The notes beneath the pieces were generated by a model, which worked only from the letters and a program-made list of their open reading frames with translations, was not told where the DNA came from and did no database searches. DNA of 64,000 bases from Gammaproteobacteria bacterium. GTDB lineage: Bacteria; Pseudomonadota; Gammaproteobacteria; GCA-001735895. The stretch covers positions 1 to 64,000 of the forward strand of contig JAUVCH010000010.1 of the NCBI GenBank assembly GCA_030595795.1, written 5' to 3'. Positions 19,653 through 57,868 of this stretch are shown here, piece after piece. Position numbers and translations under genes: made by a program. The stretch's first letter is position 1. Every line of letters starts with the position of its first letter.

Positions 19653-20243
19653 ATGACTAATTCCTTCCGACAGGCCAGTTTCCTTACTAGTGCCTATGAG
19701 ATTTCTCAACTCATACCCGATCATGGCCATGAAATTGCCTTCGCCGGCCGCTCTAACTCGGGGAAATCTAGCGCCATAAACTGCCTCACCGACCAGAAAG
19801 GGTTGTGTAAGACCAGTAAAACACCGGGGCGCACGCAGTTGATTAATTTTTTCACCCTGGGAAACGATAAACACCTGGTTGATTTGCCAGGTTACGGCTT
19901 CGCCAAGGTCTCGAAAAAAATGCGTAGCCACTGGGATCTGGTGTTGACGACTTATTTGCTTCACCGTAAGGCTTTAAAAGGCCTGGTTATCGTGGTTGAT
20001 ATTCGCCGCGGTATTGGCGACCTTGACCAGGGGCTGATCGACATGCTTGGTGATGACCTGCCGCTACATATTCTACTCACTAAATCAGACAAGCTCTCGA
20101 AAAGTGCCGTTCAGGATGCGTTTTTAAAGATACAGAAGAATATTGGCGGCGATAATCTCTCGGTTTCGAGTTTATCGGTGTTGAACAAGCAGGGACTGGA
20201 GCAGCTTGAGGCCAGGTGTGGCAGTTGGCTAGAGGCCGGCTAA
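19653..20243 (+). CDS. engB: Ribosome biogenesis GTP-binding protein EngB (YihA/YsxC)
   Basis: 196 residues, a small TRAFAC GTPase. G1 is GRSNSGKSSAIN, the G3 region is LVDLPGYGFAKVSK, and G4 is TKSDKL. EngB is needed for late 50S subunit assembly. It is divergent from the cytochrome c4 gene and convergent with polA, with the small-RNA candidate in the 252-bp gap between. The ATG at 19653 gives the usual short N-terminal extension (MTNSFRQASFLTSAY). Confidence 0.95.
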   Translation: MTNSFRQASFLTSAYEISQLIPDHGHEIAFAGRSNSGKSSAINCLTDQKGLCKTSKTPGRTQLINFFTLGNDKHLVDLPGYGFAKVSKKMRSHWDLVLTTYLLHRKALKGLVIVVDIRRGIGDLDQGLIDMLGDDLPLHILLTKSDKLSKSAVQDAFLKIQKNIGGDNLSVSSLSVLNKQGLEQLEARCGSWLEAG

Positions 20244-20256
20244 ATAGAAACAGCGC

Positions 20257-20286
20257 AAAAAAAACCCTGGCAGTAAACTACCAGGG
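20257..20286 (-). terminator. Intrinsic terminator of the small-RNA candidate
   Basis: Read on the minus strand, CCCTGG and CCAGGG form a 6-bp GC-rich stem with a 10-nt loop, followed directly by eight T residues (20264-20257). It is a strong Rho-independent terminator pointing away from polA. It ends the small-RNA candidate and probably also polA read-through. Confidence 0.85.
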
Positions 20287-20372
20287 GAAAATAGTTTGAA
20301 CCGGATGGGGTTTCCGGAACAATGTCCGCTCATAGGAGGGAGAACGGACTTTTGCGCTGGGCTATAGCGCAA
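20257..20372 (-). ncRNA. Candidate small RNA at the ErsA/Spot 42 locus (polA-engB)
   Basis: A stretch of about 115 nt downstream of polA on the same strand folds into four consecutive stem-loops. They are TTTTGCGC/GCGCAAAA at the 5' end (20374-20350), GTCCG/CGGAC (20349-20324), CCGGA/TCCGG (20317-20301) and the T-tailed terminator (20286-20257). The loop of the second (20344-20329) contains CTCCCTCC, an anti-Shine-Dalgarno-like seed. In E. coli Spot 42, and in Pseudomonas the sigma-22-dependent ErsA, lie in this same polA-engB position. A sigma-E-like promoter sits at the right distance. No open reading frame fits. Structure and location are seen directly; expression and family membership are inferred. 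Confidence 0.72.
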
Positions 20373-20377
20373 AATCT

Positions 20378-20404
20378 TTTGACAGTGACTAACTAGCAAA
20401 GTTC
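20378..20404 (-). promoter_or_regulatory. Sigma-E/AlgU-type promoter of the small-RNA candidate
   Basis: On the minus strand GAACTT (20404-20399) is followed after 16 nt by TCAAA (20382-20378). This fits the extracytoplasmic stress sigma-factor pattern (GAACTT, 16-17 nt, TCTGA/TCAAA). Transcription would begin near 20372, at the base of the first hairpin. Pseudomonas ErsA at the same locus is known to depend on AlgU/sigma-22. Confidence 0.6.
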
Positions 20405-20495
20405 TGTCTGCCTCTACTTTATAGCCCAGATTTGCAAAATTACCGGATAAATTACAGTTTAATTAATATGCAGGCTTGGTATTCAATTGAATAGT

Positions 20496-23192
20496 TTAAT
20501 GCGCCTCGTGCCAATTGACGCCAACACCCGCATCGACCTCGAGCTTGATCGATAGTTGAGCGGCTGAAGTCATCAAACTGGAGAGTGTTTCCTGGCTGCG
20601 CTCTATATCATCCTGTTTCACTTCGAATACCAGTTCATCGTGTACCTGCATAATCATCGTGGTGTTATTGCCGTCTTCGATCAGCCAATGATGCACATCA
20701 ATCATGGCGCGTTTGATTATGTCGGCGGCGGTACCCTGCATCGGTGCATTGATCGCGGTTCGCTCGGCATATTGGCGTTGCATGGCGTTGCGCGCATTAA
20801 TATCAGGCAAATACAGGCGGCGTCCGAATACGGTTTCTACATAACCCTGATCGCGTGCTAACTGCTTGGTATCTTCCATATACTTTTTCACGCCTGGATA
20901 GCGTTCGAAATAAGTGTCGACGTACTTTTGAGCCTCATTTCGACCAATATTCAGCTGTTTCCCCAACCCAAACGCCGACATACCGTAAATCAGGCCGAAA
21001 TTAATGGCCTTTGCTGCTCTACGCTGATCGGATTCTACCGCATCGAGTTCACAGGCAAATACCTCGGCGGCTGTGGCTCGGTGGACATCCAGACCCTGCT
21101 CAAACGCTTTAATCAAATTTTCATCGGCTGACAAATGCGCCATGATGCGCAATTCGATTTGTGAATAGTCTAGCGCCAGAATACGTTTACCTTCGGCGGC
21201 AACAAATGCCTCGCGAATTCGGCGTCCTTCGGCGGTTCGAATTGGGATATTCTGTAAATTCGGGCTGGTCGAAGAAAGTCGTCCCGTAGAAGCTACCGCC
21301 TGCTGGTAAGAAGTATGGACGCGGCCGGTACGGGGATTGATCTCTTTCGGCAGCTTATCGATATAAGTCGTTTTCAGTTTGTTCAAACTACGGTGTTCGA
21401 GTATCAGAGCAGGAATCTCGTAATTTTGAGCCAGTTCTTCAAGCACATCTTCGGCGGTGGATGGCTGGCCTTTAGGGGTTTTGCGTAGCACGGGCAATTC
21501 GAGTTTATCGTATAAAATTGCCTGAATTTGTTTCGGCGAACTCAGATTAAAGGCTTCACCGGCTAATTCGTATACCGATGCTTCGATATTCGTTAATTTT
21601 TCATCGACTTCGATCCCTTGTTGGTGCAGCAACTTCTCATCGATTAATACACCGTTTTGCTCGATTTTCAATAACACTTCGACCAGGGGTAATTCGATTT
21701 TCTGATATACCTCGTTAAGGCTTTTATCTCCCTGTAGGCGTTCGTGCAAACAGTGATGCAATTGCAGGGTAATGTCGGCGTCTTCGGCCGCATAATCGCT
21801 GGCTTTGTCGAGTTCGATCTGGTCGAAGGTTAGCTGCTTCACGCCTTTGCCGGCGATATCTTCGAAATGAATAGTTTCACGGCCCAGATAAAAGTGTGCC
21901 AACGCATCCATATTATGCCGACTGGCAGTCGAGTTAAGCACATAGGATTGCAACATGGTGTCGTGCGCAATGCCTTTTAAGTGGATACCTTCGCTGATAA
22001 ATATATGGGCGTCGTATTTTAAATTCTGGCCGATCTTACCAACCGCAGGATCCTCTAAAATAGGCTTTAGCGTACTTAGCACCTGTTCACGATCAAGCTG
22101 CTCGGGTGCACCGAGATAACTATGCCCAAGCGGTATGTAGCAGGCCTTACCCGGCGTAACGCAGAGTGAGATGCCGACCAGCCTGGCCTGCATATAGTCG
22201 AGACTGGTAGTTTCGGTGTCGATAGCAAAACTATCTGCCTTTTTAATTAGATCTAGCCAATAATCGAAGCCTTGCTGGGTAAGAACGCATTCGTATTCAG
22301 CGGGAATTTCTTCGGGGACTTCAACCTCGACCGACTGATCATCTAGTTCATCGTTCCAGCGAGAAAAACCAAACCGTTGGTAATAAGCCGCGAGAGCCGC
22401 GCTATCGGCATCAGCCTGAATCAAATCGTCGATTTCGACACCCGTGTCACAATCGAGCTTTATGGTCGCCAGTTGATAAGACATCGGCAGGAAGTCGATT
22501 GACTCTCGCAGGTTCTCACCGACCTTGCCTTTTATCTCTTCGGCATTATCCATTACTGCCTGTAAGCTTCCATACTGGGCAATCCATTTACTCGCTGTCT
22601 TAGGTCCCACTTTGGGTACGCCTGGGATATTATCGGAGGTATCACCCATTAACGCCAAATAGTCAATAATCTGATCCGGCCTGACCTGGAATTTTTCTAC
22701 TACGGCTTCCTCGGTCATGAGGTGATTGTTCATCGTATTGATAAGACGAACTTCTGGATTTACCAACTGCGCCATATCTTTATCGCCTGTCGAAATTAAT
22801 ACCTGATAGCCGCGTTGGGTAGCTTCGACGCTTAAGGTACCGATAACGTCATCGGCTTCTACGCCTTCGATGCTAATCAGGGGAAAGCCCTGGGCCTGAA
22901 TAATATCGTGTAGCGGCTGAATCTGTTCACGCAGGTCATCCGGCATCGGTGGTCTATTCGCTTTATACTCCGCGTAGATATCATTGCGGAAGGTTTTACC
23001 CTTGGCATCGAAAACCATGGCGATATTATCTGGCTGCTCGTCTTTCACCAGCTTACGCAACATGTTTAGTACGCCATACATCGCGCCTGTTGGATGGCCG
23101 TTATGGGTAAGCGGGGGTAAACCGTGATAGGCTCGGAACAGGTACGAACTGCCATCGACCAGAACCAGCTTTTTTTGTTTCTCTTGACTCAT
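20496..23192 (-). CDS. polA: DNA polymerase I
   Basis: 898 residues with all three domains. The 5'-3' exonuclease is about 1-290 (LVDGSSYLFRAYH, GVEADDVIGTL). The 3'-5' proofreading exonuclease is about 305-490, with the intact metal-binding FAIDTETTSLD. The family A polymerase is about 520-898, with motif A LDYSQIELR, motif B RRAAKAINFGLIYGMSAFG and motif C MQVHDELVFE. It fills gaps in excision repair and removes RNA primers. It is divergent from thrB. The stop is followed by the small-RNA locus on the same strand. Confidence 0.97.
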   Translation of the reverse strand: MSQEKQKKLVLVDGSSYLFRAYHGLPPLTHNGHPTGAMYGVLNMLRKLVKDEQPDNIAMVFDAKGKTFRNDIYAEYKANRPPMPDDLREQIQPLHDIIQAQGFPLISIEGVEADDVIGTLSVEATQRGYQVLISTGDKDMAQLVNPEVRLINTMNNHLMTEEAVVEKFQVRPDQIIDYLALMGDTSDNIPGVPKVGPKTASKWIAQYGSLQAVMDNAEEIKGKVGENLRESIDFLPMSYQLATIKLDCDTGVEIDDLIQADADSAALAAYYQRFGFSRWNDELDDQSVEVEVPEEIPAEYECVLTQQGFDYWLDLIKKADSFAIDTETTSLDYMQARLVGISLCVTPGKACYIPLGHSYLGAPEQLDREQVLSTLKPILEDPAVGKIGQNLKYDAHIFISEGIHLKGIAHDTMLQSYVLNSTASRHNMDALAHFYLGRETIHFEDIAGKGVKQLTFDQIELDKASDYAAEDADITLQLHHCLHERLQGDKSLNEVYQKIELPLVEVLLKIEQNGVLIDEKLLHQQGIEVDEKLTNIEASVYELAGEAFNLSSPKQIQAILYDKLELPVLRKTPKGQPSTAEDVLEELAQNYEIPALILEHRSLNKLKTTYIDKLPKEINPRTGRVHTSYQQAVASTGRLSSTSPNLQNIPIRTAEGRRIREAFVAAEGKRILALDYSQIELRIMAHLSADENLIKAFEQGLDVHRATAAEVFACELDAVESDQRRAAKAINFGLIYGMSAFGLGKQLNIGRNEAQKYVDTYFERYPGVKKYMEDTKQLARDQGYVETVFGRRLYLPDINARNAMQRQYAERTAINAPMQGTAADIIKRAMIDVHHWLIEDGNNTTMIMQVHDELVFEVKQDDIERSQETLSSLMTSAAQLSIKLEVDAGVGVNWHEAH

Positions 23193-43259: not shown

Positions 43260-43304
43260 AAGCACTGCTTGCACAGTCAGGCGACAGTCACTATAGTTAA
43301 CTTT

Positions 43305-43394
43305 CCTCAACGGGGTGCGCTAAGCGCTGAGAGCTGTGAACAACAGCAACCCGATGAACCTGATCCAGTTAGTACTGGCGTAGGGATGTGAGTG
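43305..43394 (+). promoter_or_regulatory. TPP (THI-box) riboswitch
   Basis: The conserved THI elements appear in order: ACGGGGTGC, CTGAGAG, ACCCGATGAACCTGATC, then CCAGTTAGTACTGGCGTAGG and GGATG. P1 is formed by CTCA (43306-43309) and TGAG (43389-43392). It binds thiamine pyrophosphate and here lies 52 nt before thiB, so the whole thiBPQ-kinase operon is expected to fall when thiamine is plentiful. The following region has TCCCC (43414-43418) complementary to the GGGGA before the thiB ATG (43438-43442), which suggests control of translation by hiding the ribosome site. That mechanism is inference. Confidence 0.95.
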
Positions 43395-43446
43395 AATTTC
43401 TAACCGAAACCCCTCCCCGCGCCGTTTATTTTTTTATGGGGAAATT

Positions 43447-44451
43447 ATGTCCAGAATTACACAAGCTTTAATCGCCGTTTCTTGTCTGCTGCAGTTTGTG
43501 AACGCTTATGCCGGAAAGCAGACGTTAACAATATACACTTATGACTCATTTACCAGCGACTGGGGCCCGGGGCCTCTGGTAAAGAAAGCATTTGAAGAGC
43601 AATGCAATTGCACGCTTGAGTTTGTTGGCCTTGAAGATGGTGTTGCTTTATTGAGCCGTCTTAAACTCGAAGCCGCCAATACCAAAGCCGATATAGTTTT
43701 GGGTATAGATACTAACTTAACCGCTGAAGCACGTGCCACCGGGCTATTCGAAGCTCACCTGATTTCAGCGAACAACACCACGCTTCCGACTGTTTGGAAT
43801 GACCAGTATTTTCTACCTTACGATTATGGTTATTTTGCCTTCGTCTATAACAAAGAATTACTGTCTAACCCACCAACCAGTTTAAAGGAACTAGTGGAAA
43901 ATGCTGACGCGCCGAATATCCTGATACAGGACCCTCGAACCAGCACGCCGGGGTTGGGAATGTTGCTGTGGATGAAGAAAGTTTACGGCGACGATGTCAG
44001 CATAGCCTGGAAAAAACTGTCTAAAAAGATTGTCACCGTCAGCAAGGGCTGGAGCGAAGCCTATGGTTTATTCCTTAAGGGAGAAGCGCCAATGGTGTTG
44101 AGCTATACGACCTCGCCGGCGTATCACATCATTGCTGAAGATGATCAGCGATTTGCTGCTGCCAGTTTTGTGGAAGGACACTATCAGCAAATCGAAGTGG
44201 CCGGTTTAGTTGCTTCGAGTAAACAGAAAAAATTGGGTCGAGAGTTTCTGCAATTCATGATGAGTGAGAAATTTCAGTCCATCATACCGACTACAAACTG
44301 GATGTATCCTGCTGCTTTAGCTCCAACTAAAATGCCGCCAGCATTTAAAGGACTAATTAAACCTTCTCGTTCGTTGCTATTCGATGATAGTGAAATTGCC
44401 GCCAATCGGAAGCTGTGGGTTAACGAATGGTTAGAAGCCATGGCAGAATAA
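43447..44451 (+). CDS. thiB: Thiamine ABC transporter substrate-binding protein
   Basis: 334 residues with a signal peptide (about 1-22, ending NAYA). The mature part begins GKQTLTIYTYDSF, typical of ThiB, and contains conserved DYGYFAFVYNKE, ILIQDPRTSTPGLGMLLW and LSYTTSPAYH segments of this family. It captures thiamine, thiamine phosphate or TPP in the periplasm. The ribosome site GGGGA is 4 nt before the ATG. First gene after the TPP riboswitch. Confidence 0.94.
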   Translation: MSRITQALIAVSCLLQFVNAYAGKQTLTIYTYDSFTSDWGPGPLVKKAFEEQCNCTLEFVGLEDGVALLSRLKLEAANTKADIVLGIDTNLTAEARATGLFEAHLISANNTTLPTVWNDQYFLPYDYGYFAFVYNKELLSNPPTSLKELVENADAPNILIQDPRTSTPGLGMLLWMKKVYGDDVSIAWKKLSKKIVTVSKGWSEAYGLFLKGEAPMVLSYTTSPAYHIIAEDDQRFAAASFVEGHYQQIEVAGLVASSKQKKLGREFLQFMMSEKFQSIIPTTNWMYPAALAPTKMPPAFKGLIKPSRSLLFDDSEIAANRKLWVNEWLEAMAE

Positions 44452-56287: not shown

Positions 56288-57592
56288 TTATCTTTTATCA
56301 ACTGGAATATATTCCAGATCGATCGGGCCTGTGTATAACTGTCGTGGCCTGCCGATCTTATAGCCTGGCTCGGAGACCATTTCGTTCCACTGTGTGATCC
56401 AGCCAATTGTCCGTGCCATGGCGAAAATTACGGTAAACATATTCATCGGTATGCCCATTGCCAGGAAGATGATGCCTGAATAGAAGTCAACGTTAGGATA
56501 AAGTTTACGCTGTACAAAATAATCGTCTTCGAGCGCTACTTTTTCCAGTGCCATCGCGGTTTCAAGCAGCTTCTTCTGTTCACCCGTCGATTCCATATCG
56601 TTGAGTAACTGGTGGCAAATCTCTCGAATTAATGTAGCCCGGGGGTCAAAGTTTTTGTATACACGATGCCCGAAGCCCATTAGACGGAAATTATCACTTT
56701 TGTCTTTTGCGCGATCAATAAACGATTGCAATGGCTTACCCGAATTATTAATTTCCATCAGCATTCGAATAACTGCTTCGTTGGCGCCACCGTGAGCGGG
56801 GCCCCAAAGTGCTGCAATACCGGCGGCCACGGCAGCAAACGGGTTCGCATCTGAGCTACCCGCCAGTCGCACGGTTGAAGTCGAAGCATTCTGCTCGTGA
56901 TCAGCATGCAAAATCAAAATTAAATCGAGTGCCTTGGAGAGTAGAGGGCTGGCCGTGTATTCTTCCGAAGGCATAGCGAACATCATATGCAGGAAGTTTT
57001 CGGTATAGCCAAGGTTATTATCTGGATAGATGAAAGGCTTGCCAGTGGCGTAACGGTAGCTCCAGGCAGCGATAGTCGGCATCTTAGCGATCAGGCGCTG
57101 TGCAGTAATCATGCGGTGCTCTGGATTACGGATATCCATGTGATCGTGATAGAAAGCTGCTAGCGCACCAACCACACCCACCATGATGGCCATCGGATGC
57201 GCGTCTCGACGGAAGCCGCTAAAGAAACGCTTAAGTGCTTCGTGCAGCATGGTGTGGTTGGTAATTGTATTTTCGAACTCGGCTAGCTCGGTTTTACTAG
57301 GCAGCTTGTCATTCATTAACAGGTAACAAACTTCGAGGTAGGAGCTATGCTCTGCCAGTTGTTCGATTGGGTAACCTCGGTACTGTAGTACACCTTTATC
57401 GCCGTCCAGGAAAGTGATTTTACTGGAGCAGCTGGCGGTCGACATAAAACCAGGATCGTAAGTGAAATAACCGAGCTCCTTATAAAGGGCGCTGATATCG
57501 ATGGTTTTGGGTCCGCTGGTGGGTGTTAACAACGGTAACTGAACTTTCTTTCCTGTCGTATCGTCGATAATTGTCACTGTATCGGTGGTCAT
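56288..57592 (-). CDS. gltA: Citrate synthase, type II
   Basis: 434 residues, the hexameric type of Gram-negative bacteria. The catalytic residues are in [26 protein letters not shown] and [12 protein letters not shown], with the N-terminal domain ([16 protein letters not shown]) that is absent in the shorter PrpC. It makes citrate from acetyl-CoA and oxaloacetate. AGAGGAA precedes the ATG. It is divergent from the prp regulator gene across a 353-bp gap. Confidence 0.97.
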
Positions 57593-57868
57593 TTGATATT
57601 CCTCTTGAGTTCCAGAGCTAGTATAACTATAGATTCACTCAGGGCTTCGAATTAATGAAAATCTACAGGGTGATTTATGATTAAACCCCAGCTAGTTGTC
57701 TAGCGAGTTTAACTGGACTGCATCAATATATCCCATTCGAGGGGTAGTTAACCAACCGGCACGAGCACTATTAAATTATATTATCGTCACAATTAATAAA
57801 CGTTAATGACGCTAGAGCTTCGTTTGAGTGCGTTCTCGTTGCTAAAGTTCTCTGCCGAGCCTCGTTGT

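Follow-up and report, generated by a model that had tools for sequence, protein, structure and literature searches.

A predicted sigma-E-type small RNA with C-rich loops at the polA-engB locus of a gammaproteobacterium

A candidate small RNA gene between polA and engB

Does the gap between polA and engB in this gammaproteobacterial genome encode a small RNA, and if so, to which of the RNAs known from the same chromosomal position is it related? We analyzed a window of 64,000 nucleotides, in which the gene for DNA polymerase I (polA; 20496..23192, minus strand; identified by an NCBIfam equivalog model) converges on engB/yihA/ysxC (19653..20243, plus strand; TIGR03598, 210.9 bits). An initial annotation of the gap, made from the sequence alone, had described a sigma-E-type promoter driving a four-hairpin RNA and proposed an envelope-stress RNA, perhaps related to ErsA of Pseudomonas. 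Our results support this interpretation, with the corrections given below.

Direct reading of the minus strand confirmed the promoter motif. GAACTT (20404-20399) is followed by a 16-nt spacer and TCAAA (20382-20378), which lies inside a -10 element GTCAAA (20383-20378), and together these form a candidate sigma-E/AlgU-type promoter at 20378..20404. The -35 element lies 91 nt downstream of the end of the polA stop codon. The pattern GAACTT-N15..17-TCAAA was found twice in the 64 kb, versus 0.09 occurrences expected. At the other copy (57823-57850), a search with the RNA models found no such RNA alongside.

The sequence downstream of the promoter is predicted to encode a small RNA about 118 nt long (20257..20374, minus strand), with a probable start near 20375-20371 and matches in 37 of 41 genomes of the order. 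Its minimum free energy is -49.3 kcal/mol, versus -23.7 +/- 3.3 kcal/mol for dinucleotide shuffles (z = -7.8; none of 200 shuffles was as low). The RNA is predicted to fold into four adjacent hairpins, all on the minus strand. Hairpin 1 (20350..20374; 9 bp) has AGCCC in its loop and is backed by the fold and by compensatory changes. Hairpin 2 (20324..20349; 8 bp), placed by the fold, has the loop UCCCUCCUAU at 20341-20332, which contains the anti-Shine-Dalgarno-like CCUCC. Hairpin 3 (20296..20322), with a 5-bp core and the CCCC-containing loop AACCCCA, is again indicated by both fold and compensatory changes. The last element (20257..20286), conserved in the family described below, is a 9-bp terminator hairpin (20286-20265) with a T8 tail (20264-20257); 13 nt separate this tail from the stop codon of engB. 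The four stem-loops and the T8 tract listed in the initial annotation are thus all present, with the refinement that the fourth stem-loop is the terminator itself.

Conservation, distribution, and covariation

A DNA search of relatives found this stretch in almost all genomes of the same genus and in several of the same family, always between polA and engB where the sequence piece holds both genes. Within the genus, all loops are kept, as are the GGAACTW and GTC-TA elements of the promoter, and the surrounding gap is otherwise variable. A MAFFT alignment of 21 same-genus sequences paired in 99% of cells, with both partners altered in seven pairs (17 cells versus 3.9 in shuffled alignments).

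We built covariance model R1 from the same-genus sequences with the promoter columns left out. It matched the 37 of 41 genomes of the order noted above and 38 of 369 sampled genomes of the class. Model R2, built from 43 sequences found with R1, matched 180 of the 369 genomes, or 134 of 273 genera, at an E value of 0.001 or lower, the E values of these models coming from a short calibration. Only four weak matches (E values from 9e-5 to 3e-4) were found outside the class, and we do not claim these as members.

In a model-fitted alignment of 101 copies, a kind of alignment that is biased towards its own structure, all 32 pairs showed compensatory change (795 cells, versus 194 in shuffled and at most 135 in slid alignments). 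When 14 divergent members were aligned by sequence alone, compensatory change was seen only in hairpin 1 and the terminator, and RNAalifold on this alignment was correct for those two elements only. Loop sequences are also retained across the 101 copies: CCUCC, the anti-Shine-Dalgarno core, occurs in the hairpin 2 loop of 71 (versus 13 expected from shuffled loops), CCCC in the hairpin 3 loop of 90, and AGCCC in the hairpin 1 loop of 43. The C-rich loop that the initial annotation had considered capable of pairing with Shine-Dalgarno sequences is a conserved feature of the family.

Locus and promoter provide independent checks on this family, because neither was part of the covariance models. 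At 75 of 83 inspected loci, a set that takes in the first-found ones, polA, engB, or a cytochrome c4 gene adjoins the match. The convergent order of RNA and engB is kept in most loci, and the distance between polA and the RNA ranges from about 30 to 1200 nt. Of 97 copies found with the models, 71 are preceded by the motif GAACY-N16/17-RTC, versus 1.1 in shuffled upstream regions (largest count, 4); these copies include tandem ones and are not phylogenetically independent. The spacer is 16 nt in 66 of the 71 promoter-bearing copies, and the motif mostly starts 30 nt before the model start. At the -10 position the window has GTCAAA, and GTCTTA is the commoner form in the family. The initial annotation had staked its reading on conservation of stems and promoter in relatives; we found that the stems covary and that the promoter is kept with fixed spacing.

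The window RNA thus has every feature by which we define a polA-locus C-loop family (models R1 to R3): four hairpins, CCUCC and CCCC loops, a terminator, GAACY-N16-RTC, and the polA/engB locus. Since the window is the founding member, its own score with the family models follows by construction.

Copy number and control vary among the loci. Tandem arrays occur at the polA locus in L127 (2559-3300, five copies), L136 (2551-3304, four copies), and L141 (2560-3496, four copies), where most copies have their own GAACTT-type promoter, and pairs of RNAs occur in L054, L055, L057, L059, L095, and L128. In L042, L060, L103, L107, L115, and L130, copies lie away from polA, engB, and the c4 gene with a GAACTT-N16-TC promoter still in place; neighbors of the displaced copies that we checked are M3 peptidase, radical SAM, and phospholipase D-like genes. 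The strict promoter is missing from 26 of the 97 copies, including several near L035-L039. L035, L036, L039, and L041 keep the RNA and have no recognizable sigma-E-type promoter, which suggests changed control in some lineages.

The sigma-E system of the same genome

The genome that contains the window encodes RpoE (TIGR02939, 315 bits), followed by RseA, RseB, RseC, a DegP/MucD-type protease, and LepA. Its rpoE gene is itself preceded by a promoter of the same type, GAACTTTTGCTACGAATAGTGGTC; the -35 element, spacing, and GTC of the upstream sequence GTGAACTTTTGCTACGAATAGTGGTCTTTA are identical to those at the RNA. The rpoE-rseA-rseB-rseC operon is complete, and we infer that the RNA would be under sigma-E (RpoE/AlgU) control.

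Relationship to known RNAs

We ran the Rfam covariance search that the initial annotation had recommended. In an Rfam search at gathering thresholds, the window RNA passed no cutoff. The best match below threshold was anti-hemB (RF02837; 27.4 bits, E = 1.8e-4, cutoff 49.5). Anti-hemB also matched (E < 0.01) 31 of 33 scanned family loci and exceeded its cutoff in three, all adjoining polA (L035, 51.5 bits; L038, 50.7 bits; L111, 57.9 bits). Like the window RNA, anti-hemB/ncS04 of Burkholderia has a hairpin with a CCUCC loop, then UGAGCGG, and after these another hairpin and a terminator, whereas the Rfam model begins at hairpin 2 and lacks hairpin 1. This likeness is one of RNA form. No hemB neighbor was seen among the ten ORFs beside engB-only or displaced copies.

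The second candidate relative, sX13 of the Xanthomonadaceae (RF02232), lies downstream of polA, is about 115 nt long, and has C-rich apical loops on its stem-loops (PMC3771888), as does the window RNA; the comparison covers locus, length, and loops. The window RNA had no match to RF02232 up to an E value of 10 (cutoff 50 bits). Among the family loci, sX13 matched L050 (37.9 bits), L060 (35.2 bits), and, within the L136 array, one copy (48.3 bits); another copy of that array matched both anti-hemB (41.8 bits) and Pseudomon-1/ErsA (37.1 bits).

The third candidate relative is ErsA (Pseudomon-1, RF01719), which is under AlgU control and acts with Hfq to repress oprD (PMC7264166). The ErsA gene of P. 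aeruginosa PA7 (137.8 bits to RF01719) lies between polA and engB behind GAACTTTCCCGTTTTGCCGACAGTC, with its GAACTTT..GTC promoter in the same place as that of the window RNA, and the polA-engB position was read in the Pseudomonas loci L187 and L190. Judged by sequence and conservation, the window RNA appears to have the same AlgU/sigma-E-type promoter as ErsA. Model R3, our widest and built without Pseudomonas loci, had ErsA as its best match in 11 of 12 Pseudomonadaceae loci (23.3-31.8 bits), versus 13.4 bits for the best other match there. R3 had no match in L160 (Stutzerimonas stutzeri), the source of the query (L148) whose engB is not beside polA. In another genome, G192, which PrrF had led us to choose as Pseudomonas-like, engB is not next to polA and the RNA is absent there; named Pseudomonas loci took its place in the comparison.

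The two RNAs nevertheless differ in form. In ErsA, the first two stem-loops are separated by a U-rich unstructured domain (PMC8575079); in the window RNA this place is taken by hairpin 2, directly adjacent to hairpin 1. The C-rich CCCCCUCCCC of ErsA sits in the terminator loop. RF01719 had no match up to an E value of 10 in 20100-20500 (cutoff 50 bits), and ErsA, sX13, and the window RNA each score below the others' Rfam cutoffs. The window RNA is thus not an ErsA by the Rfam model. The looser proposal of a relative of ErsA holds for position, for promoter type, and for an ErsA signal above noise with the family model, but in form the RNA is nearer to anti-hemB.

Spot 42 is controlled by CRP. 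Its gene (RF00021) lies between polA and yihA in E. coli, so the shared position pointed out in the initial annotation stands, with hardly anything beyond it: the window RNA scores 17.0 bits against a cutoff of 80, and although Spot 42 is the best match of its own locus with the family model, it reaches only 18-19 bits (19.3 bits for the E. coli RNA). We do not claim homology. We also rejected Bordetella CT_532 as a relative, as it is located at pyrD (PMC12235514).

Could these likenesses have arisen by convergence? If C-rich-loop terminator RNAs arose repeatedly, anti-hemB, sX13, ErsA, and the window RNA would not be homologous. Short GC-rich hairpins with terminators score with many models, the ErsA and Spot 42 scores are low, and hairpins 2 and 3 align poorly from sequence alone. 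However, the matches run end to end, single arrays bridge Rfam families, and the shared locus (75/83) and promoter (71/97) played no part in the models. We consider repeated origin unlikely, though it is the strongest of the alternatives.

Our best reading is that the polA-locus family includes or resembles anti-hemB, sX13, and, distantly, ErsA. Somewhat favored, by a small measure, is the broader proposal of one ancient sigma-E-driven small RNA at polA-engB in about half of gammaproteobacterial genera, with anti-hemB, sX13, and Pseudomon-1/ErsA (possibly also Spot 42) as branches and, in some lineages, with arrays that hold two to five copies, most of them under promoters of their own. The position and promoter of ErsA and the location of sX13 at polA are already published. 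The window RNA is an undescribed relative of these known RNAs, and the new part is the family-level link, a computational result; our literature search found no paper joining sX13 and ErsA or linking these RNAs. If true, the link would unite studied RNAs that have been treated as unrelated (ErsA, sX13) with ones known only from databases, and anti-hemB- and sX13-like RNAs would be predicted to come under envelope-stress control. The authors of the sX13 study asked if RNAs of this kind are also encoded at polA in other bacteria, a question that would become a testable statement about a whole family (PMC3771888).

Proposed function

We consider it probable that the window encodes a trans-acting RNA that is expressed from a sigma-E promoter and blocks Shine-Dalgarno sites with its C-rich loops, and that this RNA is a member of a broad polA-engB family of Gammaproteobacteria that covers anti-hemB-like RNAs, probably sX13, and distantly ErsA. 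The computed parts of this explanation are the conservation of the RNA gene, its covariation, the promoter, the locus, and the rpoE operon. For transcription, induction, targets, mode of action, and Hfq use, we infer the following course. In envelope stress, RNA polymerase with sigma-E (RpoE/AlgU) would transcribe the RNA of about 118 nt, ending at the RNA's own terminator. Hairpins 1 to 3 would then offer their C-rich loops (AGCCC, CCCUCCU, and ACCCC) as seeds to G-rich Shine-Dalgarno or enhancer sites of mRNAs in trans, and the outcome would be mainly translational repression, whether or not Hfq is needed. Against this explanation count the window's GTCAAA in place of the commoner GTCTTA, the 26 copies with no strict promoter, and the mutual Rfam scores below cutoff of ErsA, sX13, and the window RNA.

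The C-rich loops of sX13 repress mRNAs with G-rich motifs near their start codons, and Hfq is not needed (PMC3771888). Since sX13-like loops and an ErsA-like promoter come together in the window RNA, its most likely role, by analogy, would be to repress mRNAs that have strong Shine-Dalgarno sequences when envelope stress induces it. We did not find an hfq gene in the genome itself (G000), a MAG that is 92% complete. Most other genomes of the genus have the gene, so its absence here is probably due to incomplete assembly, and both Hfq-dependent and Hfq-independent modes are possible. For the same reason we rejected loss of Hfq in this lineage.

The hairpins might instead be the terminator region of polA, with a short RNA released from the polA 3'-UTR by processing. 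The RNA does lie downstream of polA in the sense orientation, and we found no other polA terminator between the two. This origin is improbable, however, given a promoter motif at near-fixed distance and spacing, a distance to polA that varies so widely (~30 to 1200 nt), promoters on distant and tandem copies as well, and conserved loop sequences, for which a terminator has no need. More improbable still is an RNA that is driven by sigma-E but works chiefly in cis, on the convergent engB, by antisense pairing or transcription interference: its terminator ends only 13 nt from the engB stop codon and the order is convergent in most loci, but RNA and engB do not overlap, conservation lies in the loops rather than at the engB-facing end, some copies have no engB, and sX13, which shares the locus, is a trans-acting RNA (PMC3771888).

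Additional features

Two GAACTT-like sites with sigma-E-like spacing lie elsewhere in the window, both lacking a match to the RNA models. One, at 57541 (plus strand), is within a citrate synthase-like ORF of the opposite strand, and the other, the 57823-57850 copy (minus strand), is between that ORF and a GntR-like regulator. In a related genome, a c-di-GMP-I riboswitch (L038, 2036-2120, minus strand; 77.9 bits) lies between the RNA and polA. The window also contains a TPP riboswitch (RF00059, 75.4 bits; 43301-43404, plus strand) upstream of an ORF that starts near 43448 and resembles a thiamine-type periplasmic binding protein.
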